The translations under genes were made by a program, and so were the position numbers. This document shows positions 1,298 to 24,956 of a stretch of DNA of 44,941 nt, one piece after another. This DNA comes from Fibrobacterota bacterium (GTDB lineage: Bacteria; Fibrobacterota; Fibrobacteria; UBA11236), in NCBI GenBank assembly GCA_947466585.1, contig CANIEU010000019.1:1-44941 (forward strand). The letters are read 5' to 3'. Each line of letters opens with the position of its first letter. The stretch's first letter is position 1. Below the pieces are notes generated by a model that was not told the origin of the DNA, ran no database searches, and saw only the letters and a program-made list of their open reading frames with translations.

Positions 1298-1741
1298 GCG
1301 CATCGCAGTCCGGCTTCGGCGGAGAATCCGGAATGCGGATCGGTACAAGATCACGACCAGCATCAGGGCAATTGCCGTTTCAGGCCATTGCGAGCGCGTG
1401 AGCCAAACGCCCGTAGCTGCAAACAGTACGGCGATGTTTTCGAGTACGTCATTGCGCGAGCATTCCCACACCGAGGCCATGTTGATGTCTTCGTCTCGGT
1501 GTTTCCAAAGAATCAAAAGGCAGGCGAAATTCGCCACCAGGCCGAGCACACTCATGGCTCCCATTTGTTCGAATACGGGCGTCTGCGGTTCCAGAATCTT
1601 ATACAGCACCTGCACGGTGACGGCAACGGCAGCGAGAAGAATCAGAAGCCCTTTGAAATAGGAGACGTTGGCTTTGACTTCCGGGCCGCGCGAAACCGCA
1701 TACAGGCTGAGGCCGCAGGAGCGGCACAAACGTCGTCGCAA
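1286..1741 (-). pseudogene. Truncated CDF-type cation efflux protein remnant
   Basis: The 151 codons open from a TTG. From residue 10 they match the middle and end of short cation-diffusion-facilitator relatives: a GLSLYAV stretch, hydrophobic helices, an HRDEDINM segment, CSRNDVLENIAVLFAA, and a last helix ending in RILRR. The N-terminal helices expected before GLSLYAV are missing. A TAG lies seven codons upstream in the same frame. In another frame, ATG at 1752 reads MGDSCDD, which resembles the DS-[CL]-D segment that normally precedes GLSLYAV. That suggests a frameshift plus a larger 5' loss. No ribosome-binding site is evident. It may still make a short membrane protein, but I judge it a decaying gene. 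The metal specificity cannot be told. Confidence 0.6.
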
Positions 1742-1775
1742 GAGTCGCCCATGAACGACCTATTCTATTCCGCGG

Positions 1776-2237
1776 TTACTCGCCGCCGTGGGTCACGCCG
1801 AACTCTTCGAGTGCGGGAAGGAAGTTTTTGCCCTCATGCCCGGGCCGGCTGAGTTTCATGAGAGCGAAACGCTCGAGCTCTCCTAGGCCGAGCCAGGAAT
1901 CGGGGGACACTGCCGCTCCCAGCGTCACGGCCTTCTCGGCCACTTGATCCGGAACTTCGGCACCGCCCCAGTCGGGCTTTACGGGTTCCATCAAGGTGGG
2001 CATGACACCACAATTGATGCGCACCAAAATCGACAGCATGTTCCGGAAAGCCTGGATCTCGGCGCGATTGATGTAGGGCATCTCCGCGAGATATGCGCGT
2101 TCGGCCGGGTCGAGCTTGGACCATTCGTTCAACTTGAGTTTGATGCCGGCGAGGTCGAGCTTATAACGTACGGTCATGGGAACGCACCGGAGGGACTCGA
2201 CAAAATCGGATTCGAATTGGAAATAACGTGCGGTCAT
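1776..2237 (-). CDS. Nitrate-reductase-associated protein (NarM-like)
   Basis: This 153-residue soluble protein matches the nitrate-reductase-associated family (PF09655/TIGR02664, which includes cyanobacterial NarM). The diagnostic start is FQFESDFVESLRCVPM followed by VRYKLDLAGIKL and LNEWSKLDPAERAYL. NarM is needed for active assimilatory nitrate reductase in cyanobacteria, probably in assembly or maturation. The gene is divergent from the MOSC remnant and lies next to an NrtD-type ATPase fragment and a porin, which agrees with a nitrate-assimilation locus. No nitrate or nitrite reductase gene is visible in this window. The start ATG at 2237 lacks a strong Shine-Dalgarno, but the conserved N-terminus begins within seven residues, so the start is secure. 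The reading frame is intact. Confidence 0.82.
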   Translation of the reverse strand: MTARYFQFESDFVESLRCVPMTVRYKLDLAGIKLKLNEWSKLDPAERAYLAEMPYINRAEIQAFRNMLSILVRINCGVMPTLMEPVKPDWGGAEVPDQVAEKAVTLGAAVSPDSWLGLGELERFALMKLSRPGHEGKNFLPALEEFGVTHGGE

Positions 2238-2361
2238 AAACGGAAGTTAGGAATTTGGTCGAGGCCTTGCGGAAGCGTGATTTCCAGGTTTCTGCCGTAT
2301 ATCACGCATGGAATTTGCTTGAATTCCCATCTGAGTGCACCAATCAAGGGGAGATGCTGCG

Positions 2362-2886
2362 ATGAAAATCATCTCGGTCAATACCGGAATGCCAAGGCCG
2401 GTGATTTGGAACGGCAGGAAAGTTCTTAAGGGGATTTTCAAATCCGCCCGTTCCGGGCCGGTTCGGATCACCGCATAGGGAATGGAAGGGGACGGTCAGG
2501 CGGACCTAAGCGTACATGGGGGCGTAAGCAAGGCGGTCTACGCCTATCCGGCCGACCCCGACGTGCTGTTGCTCGACGAACCGTTCGGCGCGCTCGATGC
2601 GCTCACGCGCGGCAGCATGCAGGACGAACTCAACCGCATTTGGGAAACCTCGCGTAAAACCGTCATCATGATCACGCACGACGTGGACGAGGCGATCTTC
2701 CTCTCCGACCGCGTGCTGCTGATGAGCAATGGACCGCGCGCCACCATCGCGGAAGACGTTAAAATCAACATTCCGCGGCCCCGCACGCGCGAGAGCATGC
2801 TGGAAAACCCCGATTATATCGCGCTGCGCAAGCGCCTTGTGCATTACCTGATCTCAACCGGACATGCCCACCAGACCGCCGCCTAA
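2362..2886 (+). pseudogene. MOSC-domain gene fused to NrtD-type ABC ATPase end
   Basis: One reading frame carries parts of two unrelated genes. ATG 2362, after AAGGGGAG, begins a MOSC-domain protein of the small YiiM-like type (MKIISVNTGMPRPVIWNGRK, then GIFK, SGPVRI). A TAG at 2476-2478 interrupts it at codon 39; the frame resumes with GDGQADLSVHGG and KAVYAYP, typical MOSC sequence. At about 2551-2556 the sequence switches to the last ~110 residues of a nitrate-type ABC ATPase (NrtC/NrtD): Walker B LLLDEPFGALD, the H-loop region MITHDVDEA, and a tail with IPRPRTRE. The Walker A and signature parts are absent. A shorter frame from ATG 2482 (134 codons) could be translated but would be non-functional as an ATPase. 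It is best read as a deletion scar or, less likely, an assembly join. Confidence 0.8.
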
Positions 2887-3088
2887 GCCATCTAGAAACC
2901 ATTAAGGTCGACTTCCGCATCAAGCGGATCGACCCCACAGTGGCGGGTTCCTCCGCCGCACAGGGAGAAGCCATGTCGACCGAGGAGAAACGACCGCGAA
3001 CCAAGCTCTCACGGACATGAATCTTAATAGACTAAATTATCCATAGAAAAGCCACCCCCCCCCCGCCCACCACCCAAGGAGAGAAACC

Positions 3089-4432
3089 ATGAAAACCCCA
3101 TTCACCCGAACCCCGCTCCTGATCCGCGCGGCTCTCGGCACCGCCCTGTTGGCTGCCGCCGCGCATGCGACCCCACCCGAAGGATCGCCCTACACCGTAC
3201 CGCAACCGGCCTTCTTCGGCCAGGTGCGCCCGCGCACCGAGCTCGATCACAAGGCCCTTTCCGACACCAGTGCGAACAAATCCCTGCTCAGCACGCATGT
3301 GCGCACGCGCCTCGGCTTCGTGGCCACGCCGTCGCTCAACGTGGAGATCAAGGTGGAATTTCAGGACACGCGCGTATTCGGAACCGAACCCGGTTCCGCA
3401 GCCGCACCCCATACGGCTTCCACGGGAAACCTGAAGGGCCTCGATCTTTTGCAAGGCTATGTTGCCGTGCAGGAGGGCCCGATCAAAACGGTGCTCGGAC
3501 GCCAGAAGATGCAGCTCGGCGGCGGACGTTTTCTGTCTACGCTAGAATGGGCCCCGTACTCGCGCGCCTTTGACGGTGTATCCGCCAACTGGAGCATGGA
3601 GTCGGGCGACCTGACGGCCTTCTCCTACCTGGTTGCCGACAGCACGAATTCGACCACGGGCACGGCGCAGACCAAACCCGCCACCGAAGACCGCCTGTTG
3701 CTCTCGGGCATTTATTACAACCGCAAGATCAACGACATGCTCACGGCGGAGGCCGGATTATTCCACGACCAGAGCCGTTTGCTGACCGTGTACAGCGGTG
3801 ACAGCTCCACTCGCTACGATCTCGTGACAGCCAGCGAACGCGTTCTCGGCAAGTTCAACATCTTCGCCTTCGAGGAAGAATTCCTCTACCAGACTGGCAA
3901 GATGCACCACAAGGTCAGCCGCGACGTGGCAGCGTGGCAGCTTGCCGTGCGCGCCGGCATCGTGCTTCCGAAACTCAAGGCCAACGTGGGCGTGGACGCC
4001 ATGAGCGGCGACGACGACCAGACCGATCACGACTATAACACCTACCGCGCGAACTTCTACTTCTCCCACGCCTATTTCGGTTGGATGGATTACTTCGTCG
4101 CCAATCCGCGCTACGGTGTGGTGGACTATCGCGCCGACGTGGATGCGCTGGTGTGGAAGGGCGAGACGCGTACGGCTTCGTTCAAAGGCCAGTACCATTA
4201 CTTCACGCCGCAGAACGCGCCCTCCAACGCCGACAAGCCGTATGGTCAGGAAGTCGATGCGGAATTGCATCTCGGTCTCTATCCCAAATCGAACATCGTG
4301 ATCGGCGCGGGCATGTTCCTTCCCGGCGACGGCGCCTACAAGCTCGCCGGAGCGGTGGCCAAGCTCACCTCGGCCGCCCAAAATACGTCTCCGGCGTACT
4401 TCTTCTACTTCATGCCGACGTTCAACTTCTAA
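3089..4432 (+). CDS. Alginate-export-family outer-membrane porin (AlgE-like)
   Basis: A 447-residue protein with a signal peptide (about 1-27, ending AAAHA) and a repeated amphipathic strand pattern ending in the aromatic C-terminus FMPTFNF, as in outer-membrane barrels. RPRTELDHKAL, the THVRTRLGF strand and VLGRQKMQLGGGRFL match the alginate-export family (PF13372). Members of this family often sit beside nitrate ABC transporter genes, and here the gene follows an NrtD-type fragment by 200 bp, so a nitrate or nitrite porin is more likely than alginate export. The ATG follows a clear AAGGAGAG. A strong terminator follows. The gap upstream (2887-3088) has no recognisable gene, only short open stretches. 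The gene is intact while its presumed transporter partner is broken. Confidence 0.8.
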   Translation: MKTPFTRTPLLIRAALGTALLAAAAHATPPEGSPYTVPQPAFFGQVRPRTELDHKALSDTSANKSLLSTHVRTRLGFVATPSLNVEIKVEFQDTRVFGTEPGSAAAPHTASTGNLKGLDLLQGYVAVQEGPIKTVLGRQKMQLGGGRFLSTLEWAPYSRAFDGVSANWSMESGDLTAFSYLVADSTNSTTGTAQTKPATEDRLLLSGIYYNRKINDMLTAEAGLFHDQSRLLTVYSGDSSTRYDLVTASERVLGKFNIFAFEEEFLYQTGKMHHKVSRDVAAWQLAVRAGIVLPKLKANVGVDAMSGDDDQTDHDYNTYRANFYFSHAYFGWMDYFVANPRYGVVDYRADVDALVWKGETRTASFKGQYHYFTPQNAPSNADKPYGQEVDAELHLGLYPKSNIVIGAGMFLPGDGAYKLAGAVAKLTSAAQNTSPAYFFYFMPTFNF

Positions 4433-4449
4433 CGCAAGTTGCAGTAATC

Positions 4450-4490
4450 GAGCGGAGGAGCGGACAATATCCGTTCCTCCGCTTTTTATT
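4450..4490 (+). terminator. Rho-independent terminator after the AlgE-like porin
   Basis: AGCGGAGGAGCGGA (4451-4464) pairs with TCCGTTCCTCCGCT (4470-4483) and TTTTATTT follows. It separates the porin from the converging lipoprotein gene. Confidence 0.88.
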
Positions 4491-4499
4491 TAATCCCGA

Positions 4500-4763
4500 T
4501 TACTTGCCGATAGCCTTGTCGATCGCCTCGTCGATCTTGCGATCGACCTTGGCGTCGATCTTTTCACCGGCGCGCTGAAGGTGGCCGTCCGCCGGGGCCT
4601 CCATCGGGCTGTCTTTTTCGAACACGTCCTTGGACTTATCGACGGCCTCATCCACTTTTTCACCTGCTTTTTCTGCCTCACCTCGTTTGCCACAGGCGAT
4701 GAGCGTGACGGCGGCAGCGGAAACGGCGAGCACGACGAGAATTCCGAAAATAATCTTTTTCAT
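4500..4763 (-). CDS. Small lipoprotein with amphipathic Lys/Asp/Glu repeats
   Basis: 87 residues. A basic and hydrophobic N-terminus leads to a lipobox, LIAC, with the lipidated Cys at position 24. The mature part is almost only charged amphipathic helix with a repeated motif: AGEKVDEAVDKSKD, then AGEKIDAKVDRKID and EAIDKAIGK. Such proteins are usually anchored periplasmic helices of unknown role. It lies 110 bp downstream of the TamA-like gene in the same orientation and may be the third gene of that unit. No family name can be given. Confidence 0.72.
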   Translation of the reverse strand: MKKIIFGILVVLAVSAAAVTLIACGKRGEAEKAGEKVDEAVDKSKDVFEKDSPMEAPADGHLQRAGEKIDAKVDRKIDEAIDKAIGK

Positions 4764-4873
4764 GGGTTCGGTCTTTCGGGAAACACAGGAGGTTCGGCGG
4801 AACCGGGTGGCTTGAGCGAACCCCTACGATACTTGCGGCGACCGATGCCGCGCATGGGGTGATGACCCCGGGC

Positions 4874-6805
4874 TCAGAACGCCTGCGCCAAATCCACCAA
4901 CCATTGGTCGGGCCAGCTGTCCCCGGAAAGACCGAAGAATCTGCCCGGTCCGGGGCGTCCCCAAGCCAGGTCGAGTCGGAAATTGAAAATACCGAATAGT
5001 GGATAACGCAGTCCTCCGCCGTAGGCGATGCCTTGACCGTAACCTGAAGTGACGAAGCGTTCCGACAGGCTTGCGTTCTCATCGCCGCGCAGGTTCCAGA
5101 CCTTACCATAATCGACGAAGGGAACGAATTCGATCGGCTTGAAGTGCCGGGCGAAATTGCGCGGACTCACGTAATCGAAATCGAAGAGGCTTAGACGCAA
5201 TTCACCAGAGGCCAGAAAATAAGCGGGCTCCAGATTTTGGTCCAACAGGGGACAGGAGCCTTCGGGAGGAGCCTCTGCGTCCGGACAGAGTTGGTGGAAT
5301 CCGTAGCTGCGCACGCTGCGAGGGCCACCGAGAAAAAACCGATCCGCGTTTTGTCCGCCCGCGCCGAAGAAGCGGCCTCCATCGAGTCGCACAGCGGTCT
5401 TGAACTGGTGCCACGGAGGGAGGAAGTAATACGCCGCGGATTTCGCCTCGAGCCAATTGTGACGCCGGCTGAAAAATCGGAATGCGCCCGCCTCGTATAC
5501 CGGGCCGCCGTTGCCCCAGGTCAGCGCGAAGCGCGTGCCGCGCCCGGGATTCAGAGGTTGGTCGAGAAAGGAAGCGAATGCGGTGTTGGTGTAATTGAGA
5601 ATGCCGCCGCGTTCGCGATCCAGATTCCCCAACGAATCCGAAACCACGCGGCTCCGGTACTCCAGCTCGGTCCCTCCCACCCAGCGCAACCAGAACGAAA
5701 ACGTGCGCGACAGGCTCGCGAGGTTCGCGGCGCGGAAATCTCCACCGAACATCGGCGCATCCGGCAGCTTGTCCTGGAACCACTCCACGACCATATCGTC
5801 GTCGAAGCGCAGCAAATGCCCGAAGGTCAGCGGCGACCCGTAGCCCAAGGCCATGTTCTGTTTGTTTTGCGCCACGCCCGCGCCGAGGCGGACTTCCTTC
5901 AGGCTGCCCGCCACATTGGAGTGAGATACGTCCGTCGAAACGCCGAAGCCGTATTGGGTTTCGTAGAAGACCGAAGAATTGATGCGACCGGGAATCTTCT
6001 CTTCCACGGTCAACGTCAACGTACCGGTCGGATTTTCCTGCGCGTCCACCGATTCCTCGATGCGCACCGAATGATATTGCCCTGTGGATTGCAGTTTCTC
6101 GATGACGCGGTCCGTCACGTCCACGCGCACCGTGTCGCCCCGGCGGTAGGGTACGAGCCCGCGCAGAATGCCGGCGCGCGTCAGGCCCTCGAGCGAGTCG
6201 GCCGCGCCCGAGCGTAGAATATTGAGCCGCAGCGTGTCGAAGACGGAGGCTCTTCCCGCCTGTACGTGATAGGTCACGTCCGCCATCGCCAGCGAATCCA
6301 GCAGCACCACCTCTTCCTTGACGTCGGCATGCACGAAACCCGCATTACCGTAGGCCCGCGTCAGTTGCCGCACATCGAGGGTGACCGATTCCTCAAGGTA
6401 AGGTCGATCGGGCTTCGCCGACAATTCTCCGGCGGGAACCCGTGGTCCCGAGGAATCTGCGCCGACCACCACGCGCACGCTCCGGAACCGGTAGCGTTTG
6501 CCCTCCTCGATTTTCAACAGAACCTTCCACTCCTTCTTCTCCGGATCCGGTCTTTTGGAGTCGGCCTCCACCTTCACCAAGAAGTAACCTTGCTCGCGGT
6601 AAAAACGCTCCAACTGCCAGGCCGCTTCGCCAGCCCAATAGTCAACTTCGTCGTTCTTCAATTTCTCGGGTTCTTCAGGGAGCAGGTTATGCAGCGTGAA
6701 GGTGTTGAACGATTTGTTCCCGGAAAGGTCGATGTTGATGCCGTCGGCAAAGGCTGCGACCGCGATTCCTAAAATCACGAAGAATGTGAGGCGTGCCGAC
6801 ATCAT
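4874..6805 (-). CDS. Omp85-family outer-membrane protein (TamA-like)
   Basis: 643 residues with a signal peptide (about 1-21), POTRA-like repeats over roughly 25-270 (LERFYREQGYFLVKVEAD, then LTRAYGNAGFVHADV), and a C-terminal 16-strand-type barrel from about 275. The L6-loop signature of Omp85 proteins is present as GGPRSVRSYGF (493-503), with Ser where most members have Gly in VRGY/F. Two Cys (507, 518) follow in the loop. The start is ATG 6805; its ATGA overlaps the stop of the upstream TamB-like gene by 4 bp, so the two are translationally coupled. That pairing and the 643-residue size favour TamA over BamA. It should act in the outer membrane to insert or assemble barrels together with its TamB partner. 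The frame is open further upstream inside tamB, but that part is a shadow. Confidence 0.88.
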   Translation of the reverse strand: MMSARLTFFVILGIAVAAFADGINIDLSGNKSFNTFTLHNLLPEEPEKLKNDEVDYWAGEAAWQLERFYREQGYFLVKVEADSKRPDPEKKEWKVLLKIEEGKRYRFRSVRVVVGADSSGPRVPAGELSAKPDRPYLEESVTLDVRQLTRAYGNAGFVHADVKEEVVLLDSLAMADVTYHVQAGRASVFDTLRLNILRSGAADSLEGLTRAGILRGLVPYRRGDTVRVDVTDRVIEKLQSTGQYHSVRIEESVDAQENPTGTLTLTVEEKIPGRINSSVFYETQYGFGVSTDVSHSNVAGSLKEVRLGAGVAQNKQNMALGYGSPLTFGHLLRFDDDMVVEWFQDKLPDAPMFGGDFRAANLASLSRTFSFWLRWVGGTELEYRSRVVSDSLGNLDRERGGILNYTNTAFASFLDQPLNPGRGTRFALTWGNGGPVYEAGAFRFFSRRHNWLEAKSAAYYFLPPWHQFKTAVRLDGGRFFGAGGQNADRFFLGGPRSVRSYGFHQLCPDAEAPPEGSCPLLDQNLEPAYFLASGELRLSLFDFDYVSPRNFARHFKPIEFVPFVDYGKVWNLRGDENASLSERFVTSGYGQGIAYGGGLRYPLFGIFNFRLDLAWGRPGPGRFFGLSGDSWPDQWLVDLAQAF

Positions 6806-9800
6806 TTCTTTCTCTTGCTCCACCACTCGCCCCAGAACGGATAGCTGTAGTTCAGTCCGATTTTCTTTTCCACGACGTCTTCGTCCGGCGTGCTGGTGCG
6901 CACCGGCAAGGTGCGTACGGAGGCCACGGCGCGGAGATGGTCGTCGAAGCGTTGCAGCCACAGCGAATCCCGGATCACCAGCCGCATGGGAGGGCGCCAT
7001 TCCAGCGCCAGCATATGCTCCCACGGGTTGGACAGATCCTGCGAAGAGGTGTGGTAACCCGAACGTATTTTGAGGCGAAGCCGCATGTACTCGCGGCTGG
7101 TGAGGCCGATGCTCAGCGGTTGGCCCAGCGTGTCGCTGGCTTGTTGTTCACCCGAAAGCGCGCCCAAACCGGTGATCTCGAGATTCTCGATCCATGCGCC
7201 GGTATAGCGCCCCGCCTTGCTTGAGAGAAAACGGTTCAGAGTCGGTTCCAACAGGGTGAGCGCTTTTTCGCCATATCCGCGACCGTCGCCGTTGGAGAAG
7301 GCCGGGTCGTAACAACCCCGTTGCACCGAATAGAGGATGGCGGCCACGCTGGCGCCCGCACCGAAGGCGCCGCCGCAATCACTGTCGTAGGAGAACTGCA
7401 TTTCCTCGAGCGTTCCGCCGAGCCGCGTGATCACCGTGCAGGAATCGGTGGCGCTGCTTTCGGCGGGCCGGCAGGTGGAGGCGAGATTTTTATGCGCCTC
7501 GAAATTGAGCGCCCCTTCTTCCATCGAGGTATTCAACCATTTGACTTCGAGACGCGTGACGTCATAGGCTTGCCGGTCGAGGCCGAAGCCGCCGTCGATG
7601 GCGTTTACGCGGCCGTCGAACAAGGTGTAGGGATGCACGCCCTTGACCGAGAGGTTGCCAACCCAGGTCAGCCGCAAGATATCGGAGTCGATGCGGTTCT
7701 GGTTGCCCAAGGTCTGCAGTCGCAAGTTCAGCTTCAAAGCATTGCGGCCGCCTCTTCGGGAATCCTTGCGGAACAGACGTTGAATGTCGGCCAGGCTTTT
7801 CAACCGGTACCGTATGAATGATTCGCTGAGGTTTCCCGAGAACCGCAACACCGGCGGATTTTCATCGCGCCGGTCGCTCGCCAGCCGCGTGCGCGACGGA
7901 AGCGTGTATCCCCAATTGACGTTGGTCAAGGTGCCTGTGGCGTGCAGGGGTGGATCGGCAAAGCGGAAGGTGCCCCGCGCGAACGCGCCCTCCAGATGCA
8001 TGGCCACGGAATCCCGCGTAAGGTTCGCGCTCAGCGACTGGAGGTCAGCTTTGTTTTCGTCGCCCCATTGCGCCACGAAGCGGTCGCCTTCCAAGTGCGC
8101 TTTGAGGTTTTGCGTGCGCAGGGAATATTCGAGGTTTCCCGTCAGCGATTGGCCCTGATCATTTTTAACAGTCAAACGGGCCACACGGAAAAGACCTTCC
8201 CGCAAAGAAGGGTCGAGCGAAAAGTGCTGGCGCGTCAACCCTGGCAATACATAGGTTCCCTCGAAAGCCCGTGTGGTCAGCGTGGCGCGCGTCATCGGAT
8301 CGGGAAAGGGCACGTTGAATTCCAGATCCGCCTTGATGCCATCGATGGACCCGGAGCCTTCCGGCAGTTTAAATGAGCCTGAGACGCCCAGCGCGCCGCG
8401 CAAGGTTTGAAAACGCCGCGTGACTGCGTCCAGATTGATCCGCAACTCGTTCGAGGCGATGTCCGCGCGCACGTGCTGGCTGTCGGCCAAAGCGCCCGTG
8501 ACGGCAAAGCGCAGCGAAGCGTTGAAGACGGGCGCCGTGGCCGACTCGGTGCGCGCTGAAACGAGCAAGGTGTCGCCGAGGCCTTCCAGTCGCAGGCTTT
8601 TGAGAACCACATCGCCGGGCCCTTCCGTCGGGGTGATCTCGTCGAACAACAATGCGCCGCCGAAGCCCCCCTTGTTTCCTGTACTGGGCTTCGCAGAATA
8701 ATTCAATTCCCCCTTTACCGATCCGCGCGACAATGCCGGATCGGTCTGGAAGATTTGAAGAGCCTCGGCGATATTGAAACCCGGCGTTTCCACCGACACC
8801 CGTTCGTATTGGTTCGGTTTGAGCTTCGCGAGATCGTAAAACTGTTTTCCGTCGAGGCGAAGGCGGGCCTGAGCATTCAGCTCCGACTTTCGAAATAAGA
8901 GCGAAGCTTTCTTCAGGTCCATGCGCCGCGCGTCCCAAGCGCCGGCTACGCGGGCTTCGATCTTTTCACGCCGGTAAATGCCGCGCGCCCGCAGATCGGT
9001 TCGCCCGGATTTCAGCGCCGGGTTCCAGACGAAAAACCCGTCGAGCACGCCTTCGCGCATCGGGAGCGTGTCGAGCATGGGGTAGGGTAGAGCCGTCGCT
9101 TCCAGTGCCGTCGCGGCGGCCGTCATGGTGCCGTCGGCCGTGAGCGCGTAGGTCAATTTGCCGAGCTTTGTGTTTTCAAGCGCGAAGGCGAGGTCGGTTC
9201 CTTTTCCGCGCGGGGCCGGTGAGACCGTTCCCGAGAGCGTCCACAGCGTGCGCTTCGAGCTGTCGGCGTAGAGTCGCGAAGGTTTGAGCGTATAGCCGGA
9301 AGGCCCGTACTCGTGATAACTGCGCACCGAGTCGAGTTTGAATCCGTAGGCCGTGACACCTTGTGCGGCGACCATCGCCGTCAGCTTTTCGTGCGCGTAT
9401 TCACCGTGCGCATCCAAGGAGCCGAACGAAATCGTTTCGCCTAAAAAAACCTTGAGCCAGCGTTCTTCGGGGTTGAGGCGAAGCGCGAACTTCCCCTGTG
9501 CATCGCCGGCATTGCCCGCACGGTTCCCCGTGCCCGGTGATCCCGACGCCTCCACGCGCGAGGAGTCACCGGTGACCACCAACAAGGTTAGGTCGTGCCC
9601 GTTCCACGTCGCCTTTTCGATACGTGCGTCGGCGGTGCGGAGCGTATCGCGCGCGCGCACTTTCAATCCCTGCGCGTGTCCTTTCAGGGAAACGGCGGCG
9701 CGCTCCCATAACGGAACGGAGTTACGGCCCGCGGGGTTCGCCTGCCAGCGCCCGTCTGCCTCCAGGAGAACGTCTTCACCCTCCGCACCTCGGCTGGTCA

Positions 9801-15975: not shown

Positions 15976-16590
15976 GTGAACCGGTATTCTCGAACGTTGA
16001 TCGTGGTGCTAGTCGCCCTGACCTTCGTCTTTTCGCAGGACGAGGAAGAAGAACACTTCTTCATGAATGCCAAAATCGTGATCGAGCTTGTAGGCAACGA
16101 TTCCCTCACCGTCCAATTTTGCGCGCCCGCCGAAGACATGGTGAACACGGTCGGCATCATTCCCGACGGAAATGCCGACAAGGAACCTTATCGGCTGTAC
16201 GAAAAGCGCATGGAAGCCTATCTGCAGGACAAGGTTCCGGTTGCGGTCAACCGCAAACGCCTCTTTCTGAAAGTGGTGCAGTGGAAACCCGGGGGCAAGG
16301 GACGCGAAGACGGATTCGACTCGGCCGCCATCTACTCACCCCAAAAAATCCTGTTCGCCAGCAAGCTCCCGCCGCCGCGCGACTATCTCGACGTGACCGC
16401 CAATGTTTGGACCGAACGTACCGATGCGGGCAACACCCTCGTCGAATACAATTTCGTACAGGACGGCACGTTGCTGAAACGTCTGTGGACCGGTCGCGAA
16501 AAACGGGTACGCTTTTCACTCAGCCCCGATTCCTTGGCGCAGTGGCGCAAAAATCCGCCGCCGCCGGTCAAGGAGCTCGAAGAAGAGTAG
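15976..16590 (+). CDS. Exported protein of unknown function
   Basis: 204 residues. The GTG start follows AGGGAG with 6-bp spacing. A signal peptide of about 20 residues (LIVVLVALTFVFS) is followed by an acidic cluster, QDEEEE. The remainder is a mixed alpha/beta sequence with no motif I recognise; it ends in a Pro/Glu-rich tail (NPPPPVKELEEE). It is probably periplasmic or at the cell surface. Its 3' end overlaps the converging DUF2723 gene by 23 bp. Confidence 0.65.
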   Translation: MNRYSRTLIVVLVALTFVFSQDEEEEHFFMNAKIVIELVGNDSLTVQFCAPAEDMVNTVGIIPDGNADKEPYRLYEKRMEAYLQDKVPVAVNRKRLFLKVVQWKPGGKGREDGFDSAAIYSPQKILFASKLPPPRDYLDVTANVWTERTDAGNTLVEYNFVQDGTLLKRLWTGREKRVRFSLSPDSLAQWRKNPPPPVKELEEE

Positions 16591-18496
16591 GACCCGGTGA
16601 ATACTCCCGTAACAAAAGCTCGACTTCAGTGAATCCGGGAACGATCTCCAAAGCCTTTTGCAAATACCGGATTCCCGTTGCGGTATCACCCATGCCCGCA
16701 AGGTAGGCTCCCTGGTTGGCATAGCTCTCCGCATACTCGTTAAGAATGTCCGTCGCTTCGGGGTTGTCTTCTGGCGGGGGAAGCGGATGAAATACGGGTT
16801 CCCGGGGGGCGATGCGCATCGAGTCTTCCGCGCGTGCCAGTCGGAACACCATGCCGGAGGGAATGCGGCGGTAGCCCGGCGCCACGTCCAGATTGATTTC
16901 CGCCGAGGCGTACAACGGATGATCTTTACCGCTGTTCACCAGAATGCTCAGGAATAAATCCTTGACGCGCGCATTGTAGGCCAAGGAGTCGGGATGGCCA
17001 CCCACATAACGTTCCAACTCCGGCATATAAGCGTCGAACTCTTTTTGCGAGTTCCGGATCAGCCAAGGGTGCAGGGTCTTCAGGTGCGGAATATACCAAG
17101 GGTTCGATAGCATCACGATGTCGATCACCGCAATGTCGGGACGAACGTTCTCGACGATTTGCAGGTAGAACGCCGGTGCCGCCATGCGTTGATATTCATT
17201 GGTGAAAAAGACCGCACCGGAGTCCATCGAGTGGAGCACGTTGAGCGCGTATTCCTCCACCGCGAAATCTTTGCTTTTGTCAAGCGCGCGGTAATTGAGG
17301 CCCAAGGGGAACAGCGCCACGGCCAAGCAGGCGATCCCTGCGAACATCCGTCCTCTTTCGGGAACCCGCTGCAGAACGGCCCGCACGCCGAACGCGCAGG
17401 CGATGGCAACCGCCAAATAGGCGTTCAGATAAAAGTTCGGGTCGTCGAACGCATAGTTCAACGAATAAAACAGGCAACCGAAAAACAGCAGCACCAAAAA
17501 AACCAGCAGTCGACGCCCACTTCGATAAAGGGCCCACATTCCGATCGCCGCCAGCAGCAGCGGCGCATACCCGAATTCGCGGGGGAAGTCCGTGGTGAAC
17601 TGCGCCAATTTCCGCAGAGCGATCTCGAGTGAGGAGAACATCTGCCCGTGATACTGTCCCGCCGACAGGTGGTACCAAAAGGCATGCCAGGTCGTGGGCT
17701 CCCCCCAGTTCATGACCGGCGCCTGCGCCGAACGCAAGGGCAGATACAGGTAGAGCGAAAGCCCGAGAACGAACAGCGGCACCCCGCTCAACATCCGAAG
17801 CCACCCAACACGTCCGAAACCATGCACCTGGAAATACAGCACCAGGAAGGCAGGTGCCAGCAGCACCGTCATCATGTGGTTGCTGAAGCTGAGGCCCAAG
17901 GCAAAGGCGAACACCATCCAACGGCGGTTGCCGGCGGGGTTCTGGTCGGTGGATGCGGCGAAGTCGGCGAGTGCGCGGAGGAAGCACCCTATCACGAGCG
18001 CTAGAGAAACCAGATGCAGCGCATACACCTCGAGGGATACCGCCTCGGTCCAGAAGGTGCGTGAAAAGGCGAACACCAGCGCGGCCGTCGCGGCCGCAAT
18101 ACGTTCGGAGATCGGTGCTGAGGCGCGAGTCTTCATCCCGAACAAGGATGCGGCTTTTTTGGATAGCAGAAACAGGAACAACCTGAAAAAAATGAAAGCT
18201 GACGTTGCGGTGAGCACCGCGCCGAACAAGCTCAACTTCCAGATCACCCGTCCCTCGATCGGAAGATGTGCGAAGAGCCAACCCAGTAAGGTGAAAAGAG
18301 GATAACCGGTGGGATGCACGATACCCAACGTGTAAAGCGTCGTCGCCAACTCTCCGGTATCTTCCGAGGCCACAGTGTGCGATAACGTGCCCCAATAAAC
18401 GGCGAACGCAACCAGCGCCACAAGCAGACCGAGCAGGGCGTCCAGATAACGGGAAAGCGCCGAGGACGGGGGAGAGGGATGTGCGGTTGGCTTCAT
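16568..18496 (-). CDS. DUF2723 polytopic membrane protein, probable GT-C glycosyltransferase
   Basis: 642 residues from ATG 18496; an in-frame ATG at 18544 is an alternative since neither has a strong ribosome-binding site. About ten to twelve hydrophobic helices fill residues 20-420, followed by a soluble C-terminus with a TPR-like helix pair near the end (YLQKALEIVPGF). Hallmarks of DUF2723 (PF11028) are an acidic EDTGELATTLYTLG (45-58), HPTGYPLFTLLG (61-72), SFSNHMMTVLLAP and YLYLPLRS. The family includes human TMEM260, a protein O-mannosyltransferase, so the likely job is lipid-linked sugar transfer onto exported proteins. That is inference from the family. A broken paralogue lies at 23045-24956, so this copy may be the functional one. 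Confidence 0.85.
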   Translation of the reverse strand: MKPTAHPSPPSSALSRYLDALLGLLVALVAFAVYWGTLSHTVASEDTGELATTLYTLGIVHPTGYPLFTLLGWLFAHLPIEGRVIWKLSLFGAVLTATSAFIFFRLFLFLLSKKAASLFGMKTRASAPISERIAAATAALVFAFSRTFWTEAVSLEVYALHLVSLALVIGCFLRALADFAASTDQNPAGNRRWMVFAFALGLSFSNHMMTVLLAPAFLVLYFQVHGFGRVGWLRMLSGVPLFVLGLSLYLYLPLRSAQAPVMNWGEPTTWHAFWYHLSAGQYHGQMFSSLEIALRKLAQFTTDFPREFGYAPLLLAAIGMWALYRSGRRLLVFLVLLFFGCLFYSLNYAFDDPNFYLNAYLAVAIACAFGVRAVLQRVPERGRMFAGIACLAVALFPLGLNYRALDKSKDFAVEEYALNVLHSMDSGAVFFTNEYQRMAAPAFYLQIVENVRPDIAVIDIVMLSNPWYIPHLKTLHPWLIRNSQKEFDAYMPELERYVGGHPDSLAYNARVKDLFLSILVNSGKDHPLYASAEINLDVAPGYRRIPSGMVFRLARAEDSMRIAPREPVFHPLPPPEDNPEATDILNEYAESYANQGAYLAGMGDTATGIRYLQKALEIVPGFTEVELLLREYSPGPTLLRAP

Positions 18497-18570
18497 GGAG
18501 TTTCGCAAGGGTAAAACGGGACATTCAATTATACCCAATGACATCCGTTCGATAGACGCGGACCGAGCAT

Positions 18571-18606
18571 AAAAAAAGGGGCGGAGATTGCTCTCCACCC
18601 CTTTAT
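18571..18606 (-). terminator. Rho-independent terminator after the ThuA-like gene
   Basis: On the minus strand AAAGGGGTGGAGA pairs with TCTCCGCCCCTTT around GCAA and a T run follows. It lies between the ThuA-like gene and the DUF2723 gene. Confidence 0.85.
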
Positions 18607-18634: not shown

Positions 18635-19807
18635 TTACGGAATGGTAACCAGTTGGCTCGTACGACCGGTAGGGGTCGTAACGGCCACCGCATACACGCC
18701 CGAACGCAGACCGGGGAAGTTGTGGATCTGGTTGGCGGCATCACCCTTTTGGAGGGCGACGCGCTTTCCGTCCACCGACATCAGCTCCACGGAGTGGCTC
18801 ACATTGCTTGCAACGGTAACCGTGAGAGCCTGGCTCGAAACCGAAAGCTTCGAGTAGTCCGATGCGCGACCAGGGGCTTTGCCCGGATTGATGGCGGTTG
18901 TCGTCCCCGAGAGAGAGTCGTACTTGGAAACCCAAAGGATCGCGTTGTACAACTGACGACGGAGGAAGCGGGGGTTGGAGCCGCCTTGGAAGTTCTGCGC
19001 ACGATGACCTACGCCGGAGTAAAAGTAGCGGCCGCCCGAAGGAAGCGCGCGATACCAGCTATGCGGATGGTTCGTGCCCATGGCCGTTGCACCGCCCAAG
19101 CCGCCGCTATAGGACGCTTCGTCCATTTGGAACAGCACCTTCAGGTAGGGCTTGGCGCGAATCACCGCACCGGTCGTGGTGTAGGAGAACCATTCTTCAA
19201 GGAAGGTGGTGTCCGAGAGGCTGCGGGTCAGGAACTGCCAATTGGTATCCGCCTTTGCAAGCGTATCGAGGCGAATGGTCGCCGTACGGTCAGACGAAGG
19301 GTGGTTGGCGAAGCGCGCGCACTGAATCGTATCAAGCGGAGCCCACGTGCCGTACGAATCGTTCGTCGCGTGCGTGGTGATGAATCCCTTTGTCGACCAG
19401 AAATCAGCGAGTTTTTGGCGCTGGTTCGCGTTCGAAAGCGCGCTGCCGAAATCCACAAATGCGCCGATATAGACTACATCGAGCGTATCGAGTGCGTTCA
19501 CGAAGTCGGTAATTTGTGTGGACGTCGGGGTACCGGTGGTTGAGCCGGTAAGGCCGTACTGCGTAAAGGTAAAGCCAGCGGGCGGTACGATGAGATCTGC
19601 GCCGAGACCGGTGGTCGTCGGGGACGCAAGAATCGCCGCCAATGAAGAACCGGCGGTGTGGATGTTCGTGTGCCAATATTTGCCCGAACCCGTGCCCTTG
19701 AACATGCCGACCCGGATGGGGCGGTCGATACCCGGCCGATTCTGCGCCATGGCAGAGCCGGCGAGGGCCAAGAGTGCAATAACACCAAAATATTTTCTCG
19801 TAAACAT
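18635..19807 (-). CDS. Secreted ThuA-like domain protein with C-terminal sorting-type domain
   Basis: 390 residues from ATG 19807, seven bases after GAGGAG. The signal peptide ends at GSAMAQ (about 22). Residues about 30-295 resemble the ThuA-like (trehalose-utilisation) domain, a class I glutamine-amidotransferase-like fold: VGMFKGTGSGKYWHTNIH, then VVYIGAFVDF, and late on MGTNHPHSWYRA and GGRYFYSGVGHR, which match the usual W-x-R ... G-R-V-F-Y-x-x-x-G-H end of the family. Residues about 315-390 form a short beta domain (SHSVELMSVDGKRVAL, then FPGLRSGVYAVAV), the C-terminal module seen on secreted proteins of Fibrobacterota and other T9SS-type FCB bacteria. Its substrate is unknown; ThuA-like proteins often sit in carbohydrate loci. 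It is divergent from the two barrel genes. Confidence 0.75.
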   Translation of the reverse strand: MFTRKYFGVIALLALAGSAMAQNRPGIDRPIRVGMFKGTGSGKYWHTNIHTAGSSLAAILASPTTTGLGADLIVPPAGFTFTQYGLTGSTTGTPTSTQITDFVNALDTLDVVYIGAFVDFGSALSNANQRQKLADFWSTKGFITTHATNDSYGTWAPLDTIQCARFANHPSSDRTATIRLDTLAKADTNWQFLTRSLSDTTFLEEWFSYTTTGAVIRAKPYLKVLFQMDEASYSGGLGGATAMGTNHPHSWYRALPSGGRYFYSGVGHRAQNFQGGSNPRFLRRQLYNAILWVSKYDSLSGTTTAINPGKAPGRASDYSKLSVSSQALTVTVASNVSHSVELMSVDGKRVALQKGDAANQIHNFPGLRSGVYAVAVTTPTGRTSQLVTIP

Positions 19808-19993: not shown

Positions 19994-20021
19994 TTGACAA
20001 ATGAGCCTTTCGGCCTAGATT
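19994..20021 (+). promoter_or_regulatory. Putative sigma-70 promoter of the tandem barrel genes
   Basis: A perfect TTGACA (19994-19999) and TAGATT (20016-20021), 4 of 6 to the -10 consensus, are 16 bp apart. They lie 70 bp upstream of the first barrel start in the divergent gap from 19808 to 20091, which holds no other gene. Confidence 0.55.
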
Positions 20022-20091: not shown

Positions 20092-21471
20092 ATGAAAAAA
20101 AACCACACGCGTATCCTATTAGCCCTTTCGCTGTTTGCCGCCGGGGCCGTTCAAGCCCAGGAAAACGGGGACGTCGAATACAAGCGGGTCTCGATTTCTG
20201 GCCAGTTTGACAACGGTCAGATCATTCATGGAAAAATGAGTGTAAACGAGAACGCCCAAGCAAAAGAAGACATGAGCGGGTCCTTCATCCAGCGCACGGG
20301 CGTTTGGATCACCCAAGAAGCTGTCGTGAAGCAGCGTTTGACCCTGAAAATGGGCGTCGGCGGCATGTTCTGGTACGTTTTGCCGCTCAATAAAACCTCC
20401 TCGCTCCGTCAAACCCAGTTCGGTCCGGGTATTTCGCAAGCGCAGGCAACCTACGCTTGGGGCGACCTGGACAATCCGGCCGTCAGCCTTCAAATGGGTT
20501 ATTTCCCCTACAAATACAACAGCGACGCCAAGAACCTCGGCGAATACCTCATGCGTTCCGGCACCTACCCCGGGTACGTCGTAACCGGCGGCTGGAACAT
20601 GATGAACAGCGCCGGCTATATGGTCCAAGGTCTGCGCGTCAATGTTCCTTCATGGGACGGAAAGATCCAAACCGACTTCTTGTTGGCGATGGAACATGAT
20701 CTTCCCCCGCTGTTCGGCATCACTCCTGCCCTCATCAGCCAAGTGACTCCGATCGAAGGCATCAAGATCGGTGCGGGTGTTGCCTGCAATCATTGCATTC
20801 CCATCAAGCCCAGCAGCGAGAGCCCGCACCTCAATGACATGTCGAATAACGTCATCAAAAGCCTTACCTACGATACCGCCTCGAACGAATACCATGTCGC
20901 TTACGACAGCAACTCCTACTACACCTTTCAGGGCGTGAAGCTCATGGCGAGCGCCTCCTTCGACCCGAAGGCGTTCTTCCCGATGCCCATGCTCGGCGCC
21001 GAAGATCTCAAGCTCTACGGTGAAGTCGCGTTGCTCGGTGTCAAGAACTACGGCTATCTCTACGAAAACCGTCTCGAGCGGATGCCGGTGATGGTGGGCA
21101 TAAATCTGCCCACGTTCAAGCTCCTCGACATCCTTTCGCTTGAAGTGGAGCATTACAACTCCAAGTTCGTGAACGATATCACGAGTCTCGTTTATGCTCA
21201 GTCTCCGACCTGGAACGTACCGGGCGATGGTGCCGGCGACTTCCAAGAGGATTACGACATCGCCAATTCCGAAATCAGGCGGGACAATTGGAAGTGGAGC
21301 GTCTATGGCAAAAAGACCATCACCAAGGGTATCGAAGTCTATGGACAGGCTGCCAGCGACCACCTCCGCACGATCAATCTGAACGGGGGCCCTCTGCCTT
21401 CCATGGTTCCCGTGACCAATCGTAACGGCAAGGATTGGTACTACATCATCCGGCTCCAATTCGGAATTTAA
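20092..21471 (+). CDS. Outer-membrane barrel protein with CNHC loop, copy 1
   Basis: 459 residues from ATG 20092, after CAGGAG; the frame extends only five codons further. The signal peptide ends at AVQAQ (about 23). The rest alternates hydrophobic and polar residues and ends in WYYIIRLQFGI, as expected for a transmembrane barrel. I cannot name the family. It is a clear paralogue of the next gene: both share GVWITQE or VWITQEL, GYFPYKYN/GFFPYKYN, DAKNLGEYL, TGGWN, KAFFPMPMLGA and a cysteine pair ACNHCI (Cys232, Cys235 here). These are the only Cys in the mature protein. The two genes are 35 bp apart and share a terminator, so they are co-transcribed. It may be a porin or form a paired complex with its neighbour. 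Confidence 0.78.
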   Translation: MKKNHTRILLALSLFAAGAVQAQENGDVEYKRVSISGQFDNGQIIHGKMSVNENAQAKEDMSGSFIQRTGVWITQEAVVKQRLTLKMGVGGMFWYVLPLNKTSSLRQTQFGPGISQAQATYAWGDLDNPAVSLQMGYFPYKYNSDAKNLGEYLMRSGTYPGYVVTGGWNMMNSAGYMVQGLRVNVPSWDGKIQTDFLLAMEHDLPPLFGITPALISQVTPIEGIKIGAGVACNHCIPIKPSSESPHLNDMSNNVIKSLTYDTASNEYHVAYDSNSYYTFQGVKLMASASFDPKAFFPMPMLGAEDLKLYGEVALLGVKNYGYLYENRLERMPVMVGINLPTFKLLDILSLEVEHYNSKFVNDITSLVYAQSPTWNVPGDGAGDFQEDYDIANSEIRRDNWKWSVYGKKTITKGIEVYGQAASDHLRTINLNGGPLPSMVPVTNRNGKDWYYIIRLQFGI

Positions 21472-21506
21472 TCGGAAGCCAAGAGAACCTGGAAAGGAAC
21501 CGGATC

Positions 21507-22955
21507 ATGTATAACAGTTTTCTCAGGCTGACTTTGTTGGCATCATGTCTCGCCATCGGACCCATTTGGGCCGAGGATGAGAGCGACGTGAAGGCCCTTC
21601 CCCTCTCCATGGTGACCCAAGTGGATGGCGGACAGTTGGTCAAAGGGCAAGTGAACGAAGACAAGTACAAACAACGCCCCCTCCAACGCACTTCCGTTTG
21701 GATTACGCAGGAACTTTTGATCGCGGAGCGATTGAACGTCCGAGCCGGCGTGGGTGGAATCTTTTGGTACACCTTTCCGGGCGGTAAGGCGGGATACAGT
21801 AACGTTGCGCCCTTTACCACGGGTACCAAATTCGGCCCTGGCATTACGCGTGCCGACATGGAGTACCGCTTCGGCGATTTGAAGGCCCCGATGTTCACGG
21901 TGCAGGCGGGCTTCTTCCCTTACAAGTACAATCCGGATGCGAAGAATCTGGGTGAATACCTGTTGCGTTCGAGCACCTACCCGGGAACACTGACTACCGG
22001 CGGCTGGAACATCATGTCCGAAGCGACCTACATGATGCAAGGTGCGCGGCTCAATATGTCGTTGTGGGGCGGGAAATTCCAATCGGAATTTCTGTTGCCT
22101 ATGGAGCGTGATCTGCCGCCTAACCAAGATCTCTCGCCTACCTATATTGGAACGGTGTATCCGGTTCGCGGCGTGGAAATCGGTGGCGGTATTGCCTGCA
22201 ATCACTGCATTGCCGTGAACCCCAGCAATACGTCTCCCAAAAGGAAATACAACGGCAATACCGCGTCCGATGACGGCAATGGAAGCGCCTATGTCATCAA
22301 GAACCCCAAATACAATCCTGCCCTGGACCTGGCGCCGATTTCGGATTTGGAGTTGAACCCGAACGCCAATAGCAAGTACATGTACGATACCACCCAATTT
22401 TACACCTTCCAAGGTGTAAAGCTGATGGGGCGCGCCTCCGTGGATCCGAAGGCGTTTTTCCCGATGCCGATGCTCGGCGCCAATGATTTGAAGGTGTTCG
22501 GCGAAATCGCCTTGTTGGGTGTCAAGAACTATCCGTTCTACTACGAGAATCGGGCCGAGCGCATGCCGATCATGTTCGGCATCAACGTGCCGACCTTTCG
22601 AGTGCTCGACCTCCTCTCGTTCCAAATGGAGTACTATAACGCTCGGTTCGTGAACTCGCTCGAAAATGCCTACCGCTTTCAGACCCCCACGCCCCCGGGT
22701 GTGGACTCGACGGGACATATCCAAAACGATCCGAACTATTTTGATAATAGCGCGGATTTGGTCGCCAAGGATAACTGGAAATGGTCGGTGTACGCAAAGA
22801 AGGAGCTTACAACCGGGATTCGTTTGTACGCTCAGGTTGCGAACGATCACCTGCGTATGCCCGGCAACTACGATGGCGTGAACTCCTGGATTCCATTGAC
22901 CGACATCCAGTTCCGCGATTGGTATTATCTGGTTCGGTTCGAGCTCGGCATTTAA
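21507..22955 (+). CDS. Outer-membrane barrel protein with CNHC loop, copy 2
   Basis: 482 residues. ATG 21507 follows AAAGGAA and starts a signal peptide ending at PIWAED (about 22); the longer open frame from 21435 overlaps copy 1 and is a shadow. It shows the same barrel pattern and C-terminus (WYYLVRFELGI) as copy 1, and the same conserved blocks including ACNHCI (Cys231, Cys234). The region after the Cys pair is longer here, with a charged, Asn/Pro-rich insertion (about residues 240-290) likely to be an external loop. Copy 1 and copy 2 differ enough that the duplication is old. Function is unknown. Confidence 0.78.
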   Translation: MYNSFLRLTLLASCLAIGPIWAEDESDVKALPLSMVTQVDGGQLVKGQVNEDKYKQRPLQRTSVWITQELLIAERLNVRAGVGGIFWYTFPGGKAGYSNVAPFTTGTKFGPGITRADMEYRFGDLKAPMFTVQAGFFPYKYNPDAKNLGEYLLRSSTYPGTLTTGGWNIMSEATYMMQGARLNMSLWGGKFQSEFLLPMERDLPPNQDLSPTYIGTVYPVRGVEIGGGIACNHCIAVNPSNTSPKRKYNGNTASDDGNGSAYVIKNPKYNPALDLAPISDLELNPNANSKYMYDTTQFYTFQGVKLMGRASVDPKAFFPMPMLGANDLKVFGEIALLGVKNYPFYYENRAERMPIMFGINVPTFRVLDLLSFQMEYYNARFVNSLENAYRFQTPTPPGVDSTGHIQNDPNYFDNSADLVAKDNWKWSVYAKKELTTGIRLYAQVANDHLRMPGNYDGVNSWIPLTDIQFRDWYYLVRFELGI

Positions 22956-23044: not shown

Positions 23045-24956
23045 TCACAGCCACCCGAGATTGCGTTGCCATTCCAGCGCTTCGGGAAGTTGGGGCCGCA
23101 GCGTAAGCGCTTTTGCGATGTTCCGTGAAGCGGCGAGGCGGTCGCCATGTCGGGCCCAATAGATCCCAATGTTCAGGTACGCATTGGCGTACTGATCGCG
23201 GATGGCCTCGGATTCGGTTCGGTTTTCGAGAAGTGAATGAAACGTTAGTTTGAGATCCCGGGGTGGAGTTGCGCTGCTGTCCGGAGACAGTTGCAATACC
23301 AATCCAATGGGAAGCAAGGTGGTCCCGGGCACCGCAACCGGATCAATATCATTCGACAACACATAAACCGGACTCGCAGGGTAACGACCCCAGACGATGC
23401 GGCGCGTGACTTCTATCAGGCCTAGGTCGTAGGCCTCCGGATCGGCAGGTTCGAGGGAGCGGCTGCGCTCCAAAGCCCGCGCCTGCTCTAGGAAAGAGTT
23501 GATGGAAGCGTACGAGCCCGTCAGGGACCCTGGATAGCGTTTCTCGAGGTAGTCGTAATACCAAGGGAACTTCAACAGTGCACCGCTGATGACCGTGACG
23601 TCGGGCCGAACGCCCTCCACGATTTGCAGGTAGTATGAGACCGGGTAGAAATAGTCCCAGTCCATGGTGAGAATGGTGGCGTTCGGCCCGCCGGAATTGA
23701 AGCCCGTTCCGCGCATATTCTTCGACCGCGAAGTTGCGGCTTTGGTCTACGGCACGGTAATTCAGGATGAGGGGGCATACGGCGATCGCAGCGAAACTCG
23801 CGTACAGGAAGGCGCGTAAGGCCCGAGTAGAAGACCGAAGCATGGTGTCGACCGCGAAGCCACCGATCATGGCCAAGGCGACATAGGCATTCACTTAGTA
23901 GTTGGGGTCTTCGAATCCGTAGTTGATGGTGTAGAACAGGCAGGTGAGAAACAACAGGCCAGCGAAAACGAACAGGCGCCGCGAGCGCTTCGCAAGAAGG
24001 ACGAACCCGGCGACCACGAGAATCACCGGCGCATAGCCGAACTCGCGGGGAAAGGCCGTGAAAAATCCGCCGAGTTTTTGCAAGGCATTCTCAAAGGAGC
24101 GGAACATCTGATACCGGAAGGTGTGCGCATTCAGGTGCCGCCACAAACCCCCGAGCGTGGAAGGATCGCCCCAGTTCATCAGAGGTGCTTCCGAAGCCCG
24201 GACGGGAAGGTAGAGGTACGGGATCAGGCCCGCCAAAAACAGGGGGACCACTTTGGCGATCGCGATCCCCGCCCGGCGGCTCCAACCGTTGACCGCGAAG
24301 CAGAGATAGAGGAATGCGGGCGCCAACAAGACGGTCATCATGTGATTCGCGAAGCTCAGGCCGAGGCAAAGGGCGAAGAGCTGCGACAGCCAGGAAAAAT
24401 CCCGCACACGCCCTTCCGCCTGCGCTACGACCGCTTTCAGGAACAGCCAACAGAGAATCGAAACGAACAAAACATGGAACGCGTACACTTCCAAGGAAAT
24501 CGCTTCCGCCCAAACGGTTTTGGAAAAGGCGAGGACGAGGACGGCGCAAACCGCCGCAAACCGAATCCGGAAAGGGTCTTCACCGGTTTCAGGGGCGACC
24601 TTCGCTTGCTACAGGTGGCCGCGTTCGGAGTTCAGGGCGGCAAGCGTTTTGGCGGAAAAAACGAAGACGAAGAGACGGTAAAAACAGAAAACACTGCCGC
24701 CGGCCATGAGAGCCATCAGAAGGTTCATCCGCCAGATTGGGGTTCCGCCGAGGGGCAAATGGGAGAACGCATGGCCCAGCAACGTAAAGACGGGATACCC
24801 TGTGGGATGCAGTGTGCCCAAGGTGTATACGGAGGTGGCGATTTCACCACCGTCCTCGAACTGAATGGTGCGGGAAAGGGTTAGTCGATAAATCAGGAGG
24901 GCGCCAAGCGCCAAAACGGTCCCGATGAACGTGTCACCGCGCAGGAATTTCTTCAT
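23045..24956 (-). pseudogene. Broken second DUF2723 membrane glycosyltransferase gene
   Basis: Read from ATG 24956, this matches the intact DUF2723 protein at 16568-18496 along its whole length but carries three lesions. A TAG at 24609-24611 follows SERGHL; the same frame continues with the next helix and AEAISLEVYAFH. A TAA at 23895-23897 falls in FEDPNY-stop-VNAY where the intact paralogue has FDDPNFYLNAY, so it replaces a Tyr codon. A frameshift near 23690-23720 separates AVEEYARN from FNSGGPNATILTMDWDYF. Beyond it the frame is open to the end, with a TPR-like tail (NIAKALTLRPQLPEA). All family blocks remain recognisable (HPTGYPVFTLLG, SFANHMMTVLLAP, YLYLPVRAS), so the inactivation is recent. 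No single fragment would be functional. Confidence 0.9.

Follow-up and report, generated by a model that had tools for sequence, protein, structure and literature searches.

The gene pair and its surroundings

The window analysed here (44,941 bp) spans the whole of contig C19 in a genome of 2.24 Mb that is 98% complete and labelled G000. It carries two consecutive genes, P0001 and P0002, whose products have signal-peptide-like N-termini, as judged by eye, and which lie 35 bp apart, measured from the stop codon of P0001 to the ATG of P0002 (Table 1). The two proteins are 47% identical over 493 columns (BLASTP, E 7e-158), far above chance, and have the blocks DAKNLGEYL, TGGWN, KAFFPMPMLGA and ACNHCI in common. 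An earlier note on this DNA had described two paralogous barrel genes 35 bp apart with these blocks; the coordinates, the alignment and the presence of all four blocks bear this out.

The pair is preceded by a promoter-like site and followed by a strong terminator-like hairpin. Since the number of promoter-like and terminator-like sites in the region was not above that in shuffled sequences, we gave weight only to the strength of the hairpin, which, together with the short intergenic gap, fits a two-gene transcript of the porin pair. A search of related loci with a single protein also returned a match on JANYDA010000040.1 (Fibrobacteria bacterium), where the same gene pair is found.

On the reverse strand, at 23045-24956, there is a seemingly broken TMEM260-like gene, in pieces of 223, 199 and 115 aa lying in different frames, and a seemingly intact TMEM260-like copy stands near it at 16568-18598. 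At the syntenic locus of genome G162 (L074), the stretch from the porin pair to the ClpB-like gene contains no TMEM260-like gene.

Table 1. Position of the features of the porin locus in the window (nucleotides, unless residues of P0001 are indicated)
Feature	Position	Strand	Remark
ThuA-domain protein, signal-like N-terminus	18635..19807	-	PF06283, 4.8e-16; divergent, 284 bp from P0001
Promoter-like site TTGACA-16-TAGATT, 5' of the pair	19994..20021	+	weak: number of sites not above shuffles
P0001, porin paralogue 1, partner 1 of the pair	20092..21471	+	459 aa including signal peptide
Family motif DAKNLGEYLMRSGTYP in P0001	20524..20571	+	long loop after strand 5
Codons C232-N-H-C235 of P0001	20785..20796	+	end of strand 9/start of extracellular loop 5
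P0002, porin paralogue 2, partner 2 of the pair	21507..22955	+	482 aa including signal peptide
Family motif DAKNLGEYLLRSSTYP in P0002	21936..21983	+	same motif as in P0001
Codons C231-N-H-C234 of P0002	22197..22208	+	same site as in P0001
Terminator-like hairpin, just 3' of P0002	22979..23015	+	strong; 16 pairs and T tail
P0001 strands 1-8 (AlphaFold2)	residues 34-46, 65-79, 83-94, 109-124, 129-140, 176-187, 192-200, 210-221
P0001 strands 9-16 (AlphaFold2)	residues 224-233, 281-290, 308-314, 333-338, 347-354, 400-411, 414-422, 449-458

Sequence family and its distribution

Neither the two proteins nor 68 relatives matched a porin or any other fitting family in Pfam or NCBIfam. The only Pfam match was KTSC at 0.037, below its cut-off, nothing significant was obtained from NCBIfam or the PDB, and the family profile matched no PDB sequence. 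The earlier description of the family as unrecognised is thus correct with respect to Pfam, NCBIfam and PDB sequences.

Relatives were detected with the profile in 56 of 168 Fibrobacterota genomes. The ten genomes belonging to the same family as the window gave 12-44 matches each (246 in total), and G000 itself has 12 members, single or in tandem, at seven places. A few copies contain a single in-frame stop (TAG, TGA, TAA: G157:C247:12409-13746, G155:C232:4809-5669, G156:C25:60181-60690), so some copies are decaying or the assembly is in error there.

In Fibrobacteraceae only one or two distant, shorter relatives per genome were found. Their alignment (A4, loci L213-L222) has a weak but consistent homology to the porin family (hhalign probability 96.9%, E 1.4e-10, 67 columns), and by eye its GHWKTDW...FGTYIDK..RG..MRDY resembles GYFPYKY...NLGEYL..RS.TYP in the loop-3 region of the family. 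The A4 protein, of ~340 aa, differs in having short loops and one or two detected copies per genome, and it is possibly a basal porin of the Fibrobacteraceae.

Predicted fold

Structure prediction of the proteins alone was among the checks that the earlier note had proposed. Using 68 homologues as input, AlphaFold2 produced for P0001 a confident barrel of 16 antiparallel strands (pLDDT 90.4, pTM 0.88), with periplasmic termini, short periplasmic turns and long extracellular loops, which supports the outer-membrane barrels assumed in that note. The model of P0002, obtained with 13 close relatives, has the same strand order at a pLDDT of 67, and is weak evidence. The P0001 model was placed by Foldseek among trimeric porins, with OmpM1 (E 2.2e-13) and OmpF (E 3e-10) at probability 1.00 and with OmpC and other trimeric porins also matched; the TM-scores were 0.55-0.65 by target and 0.40-0.48 by query length, the latter modest, with high rmsd, probably because of the long loops.

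The predicted model resembles OmpM1 of Veillonella parvula and OmpF and OmpC of enterobacteria in its 16 antiparallel strands, periplasmic ends, long third loop and extracellular loops, whereas sequence identity is ~10% and no sequence family is common to them; the pair also differs from these porins in its longer loops and in the occurrence of the genes as ordered pairs or triples beside sugar-enzyme genes. On the predicted fold, P0001 and P0002 are most likely porins. The loop after strand 5 of P0001 (residues 141-175, 35 residues) is highly conserved, includes a short helix and contains NLGEYLxRSxxYP; in the model it stands where classical porins have their constriction loop (the L3 position). 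Within its family motif L149, G150, E151, Y152, R155, Y159 and P160 are invariant or almost so.

We also compared the pair with the PopA superfamily, likewise of 16 strands, with members reported in Fibrobacter and one reported operon of two paralogues in B. stolpii; in PopA itself, three small helices form a plug that closes the channel jointly with R32 and R43 (PMC12228718). Membership of this superfamily was not supported: the P0001 model has no plug helices before strand 1, there was no sequence match, and PopA was not among the Foldseek matches listed.

The cysteine pair

The only cysteines of P0001 are C232 and C235. P0002 has C231, C234 and C14, and since the last is inside the signal peptide, each mature protein has one Cys pair, in accordance with the earlier observation. 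The DNA pattern TGYAAYCAYTGYAT has only two sites in the 2.24-Mb genome, both at the CNHC of the pair. By strand counting, residues 224-233 of P0001 run outward, and CNHC is hence predicted where strand 9 ends on the outer side and loop 5 begins; in the P0002 model (pLDDT 67) the corresponding strand, 223-232, terminates in its CN. Judged by the alternation of hydrophobic and polar residues, the first Cys points outward from strand 9, towards the lipid.

The earlier note had proposed a survey of paralogue number and CNHC conservation and had described the two barrels as sharing a CxxC and an invariant ACNHCI. In the ten related genomes, with their 12-44 copies each, CxHC was present in 10 of 237 porin members, precisely in both copies of the orthologous pairs of G000, G162, G157 and G159 and in single porins of G160 and G155. 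This census rules out the CxxC as a family hallmark. Even the syntenic pair of G158 has no Cys pair in either copy (CWNHG and SWNHG), so that it is kept in 8 of the 10 genes of five orthologous pairs. ACNHCI is found in both P0001 and P0002, but the orthologues with the motif read [ADS]C-x-HC[IL] and the remaining 227 members are without the pair. Against the outcome that the note had set in opposition to its proposal, a known porin family with the cysteines buried and not conserved, we found a known porin fold in which the Cys pair is largely retained among the orthologous genes and is placed at the loop edge, not in the barrel core.

In the other members the site reads (F/L/W)-x-(R/H)-(L/A), so that CxHC amounts to a pair of cysteines substituted for the hydrophobic residues around a conserved basic residue at the pore mouth, in a few related lineages. 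Nearly all members without CxHC have F, L, W or Y at the first position; R, H or N occupies the third in 230 of 234 members, and the fourth, outside the CxHC members, is mostly L, A, F, W or G. The H of CxHC is invariant in an alignment of 13 sequences (the CxHC members, both paired and single, and their nearest relatives). On a tree built without the CxHC columns, three changes of the CxHC label were counted, which may represent one gain and two losses; a separate origin in G155 is possible, since its CEHC porin falls in another clade. Judging from this distribution, CxHC is a lineage-specific, side-branch trait of a few members and not a signature of the family.

MtrB/PioB is an outer-membrane barrel with a CxxC, in which the motif is N-terminal, the strands number ~26 and the partner is a decahaem protein. 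The porin pair differs from it in its 16 strands and in the position of CxHC at residues 232-235 (strand 9), and no cytochrome genes were present among the annotated neighbours of the porin loci examined.

Ordered pairs and triples

The porin genes of the ten genomes are organised in same-strand arrays, namely 69 singles, 40 pairs, 28 triples and a single run of four; most gaps within the arrays are <50 bp. Each array position has clades of its own. When the nearest relative in a different array of equal size was taken, its position agreed for 70 of 76 pair members and for 82 of 84 triple members. The position label needed 11 changes for pairs and 5 for triples; shuffling it within arrays gave 27.5 (lowest 21) and 40 (lowest 30), respectively. 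For the pair in the window, the first genes of the G000, G162, G157 and G159 pairs make up one clade and the second genes another. Because the clades are position-specific, we considered the arrays to be inherited and copied as sets, and their apparent movement as sets fits partners that work together.

The triple at L095 (G000:C2:178557-189664, at 664-7611) and 27 other triples consist of position-specific lineages and commonly lie directly 3' of a PF06439-like secreted protein. With one porin triple per locus, they raise the question of ABC heterotrimers.

Neighbouring genes

The divergent ThuA-domain gene of the window has counterparts beside the orthologous pairs of G162, G157, G159 and G158. 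In the ten genomes, ThuA (PF06283) was found within 1.5 kb of 37 of 138 porin loci, versus 1.6 expected at random positions, and PF06439 (3-keto-disaccharide hydrolase) within the same distance of at least 37 of 138, a lower bound, versus 1.8 expected. ThuA flanks 23 of 38 pairs, 14 of 71 singles and none of the 29 triples, while the PF06439-flanked loci among the matches listed were 25 singles, 1 pair and 11 triples; the two are nearly complementary by array type, since ThuA goes mainly with pairs and PF06439 mainly with singles and triples. PF06439 proteins act on 3-keto-glycosides and include a 3-ketotrehalose hydrolase and a putative 3'-ketolactose hydrolase (PMC9007349).

All seven porin loci of G000 touch a gene of one of these two kinds: ThuA on C19 (the window), C4, C5 and C10, the last being a weak match of 25.8 bits, below the family cut-off, and PF06439 on C2, C16 and C20. 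The ThuA-like neighbour of the C10 pair (L093, 1975-3378, reverse strand) has a weak match to Por_Secre_tail (type IX sorting), which suggests export by T9SS to the cell surface. ThuA genes as such are amplified to 5-33 copies per genome in the ten genomes, and most of them do not adjoin a porin.

Genes for GSDH, pectate-lyase-like, GH43 and malectin proteins were also found near the orthologous pairs. The clearest pointer to sugar uptake is an operon of G155 (L099, G155:C14:13162-21529; 3492-4967 and flanks), in which a single CEHC porin lies in the order LacI, alpha-galactosidase, porin, galT, galK and sodium:solute symporter (SSF); it makes galactosides the best available lead to a substrate.

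In SusC/SusD systems, too, genes of outer-membrane transporters are amplified many-fold beside secreted glycan enzymes. The porin pair differs from them in having no TonB plug, no SusD partner seen and 16 porin strands in place of a 22-strand transporter; with SusC/D, as with MtrB, it has single traits in common only.

Discussion

We consider, with a probability of about 0.68, that this Fibrobacterota genome has seven loci for sugar uptake and that P0001 and P0002 are the paired pore subunits at one of them. We infer sugar transport because each genome has 12-44 copies of the family, arranged in fixed pairs and triples next to genes of secreted sugar-metabolism proteins, which makes sugar-uptake pores the most likely role of the family. 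Each gene would encode a secreted 16-strand porin with the conserved loop after strand 5 at the constriction-loop position. The secreted ThuA-domain protein, divergently encoded, would act on the same carbohydrate outside the cell or in the periplasm, and the porins would let in its substrate or its products. Since each partner comes from its own lineage and the two stand next to each other in an unchanging order, the pair would be a functional unit. CxHC would be a later change within one branch, most likely with a local effect: as a disulfide or a Cys-His-Cys metal site, it would make loop 5 more rigid at the mouth of the pore. This reading builds on the family, the signal-like N-termini, the predicted fold, the pairing, the gene association and the CxHC distribution, all computed here. 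Against it, the ThuA gene of the window is divergent and outside the porin operon, and its action on the same substrate is putative; the TM-scores obtained with Foldseek are modest; and the fixed paralogue order could also come from the copying of whole arrays without a joint complex.

CxHC could instead be the working part of the proteins, as a redox-active, metal-binding or inter-barrel disulfide site, in a special two-component receptor. In fact, C, H and C have been retained jointly by both members of four orthologous pairs as well as by two single porins, the H does not vary among the 13 aligned sequences, and C-x-H-C offers three metal ligands in four residues. We nevertheless regard this as quite improbable, given that 227 of 237 members, including the syntenic G158 pair, manage without the Cys pair and that, by the column pattern, the first Cys stands for an outward-facing aromatic or aliphatic residue of strand 9. 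The trimer interface of classical trimeric porins does not lie near strand 9 and loop 5; linkage of neighbouring barrels is therefore less likely, and a local disulfide or metal site is favoured over a bridge between the copies.

The general porin fold and the expansion to 12-44 copies per genome would also suit ordinary duplicated general porins, differing in dose or slightly in selectivity, with unlinked partners and no dedicated substrate. Such an origin would leave unexplained the position-specific lineages (11 versus 27.5 changes in pairs, 5 versus 40 in triples) and an association with secreted sugar enzymes ~20 times that expected, and we hold it to be unlikely. A role other than transport, as PopA-like lipid-trapping oligomers or surface-anchoring barrels, could be imagined since Fibrobacter succinogenes has 16-strand barrels of the PopA superfamily (PMC12228718), but it appears very improbable: mature P0001 enters strand 1 at once in a model without plug, the family profile leaves PDB sequences unmatched, and the 50 Foldseek matches listed are nearly all trimeric porins, with PopA absent.

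As for the two-component porin or receptor suggested earlier, the two-gene unit is real, its two lineages are kept in order across genomes and the predicted fold is that of a porin, so the idea of two components gains support, short of being established. The reading as paired sugar-uptake pores can be extended to a more tentative one, which we would not yet expect to hold: pairs and triples may be mixed heteromeric porins, in which ordered cassettes yield one asymmetric pore for a particular, perhaps 3-keto-oxidised, glycoside that the secreted ThuA or 3-keto-disaccharide-hydrolase protein would process. Fibrobacterota would then have a glycan-utilisation unit based on porins, with CxHC tuning one subtype.

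The porin fold is already known; as far as we searched, neither the family nor its ordered sets nor its association with ThuA and PF06439 genes has been described, and the open-access literature searched contained no description of the family, of fixed pairs and triples or of a link to ThuA or 3-keto-disaccharide hydrolase. Little is known of how free-living Fibrobacterota import the sugars that they release. The comparison places the eye-catching CxxC as a lineage-specific change. If the reading as paired sugar-uptake pores is right, hundreds of outer-membrane proteins that now lack annotation would gain a name tied to function, and there would be a testable case of ordered sets of porin subunits moving together.
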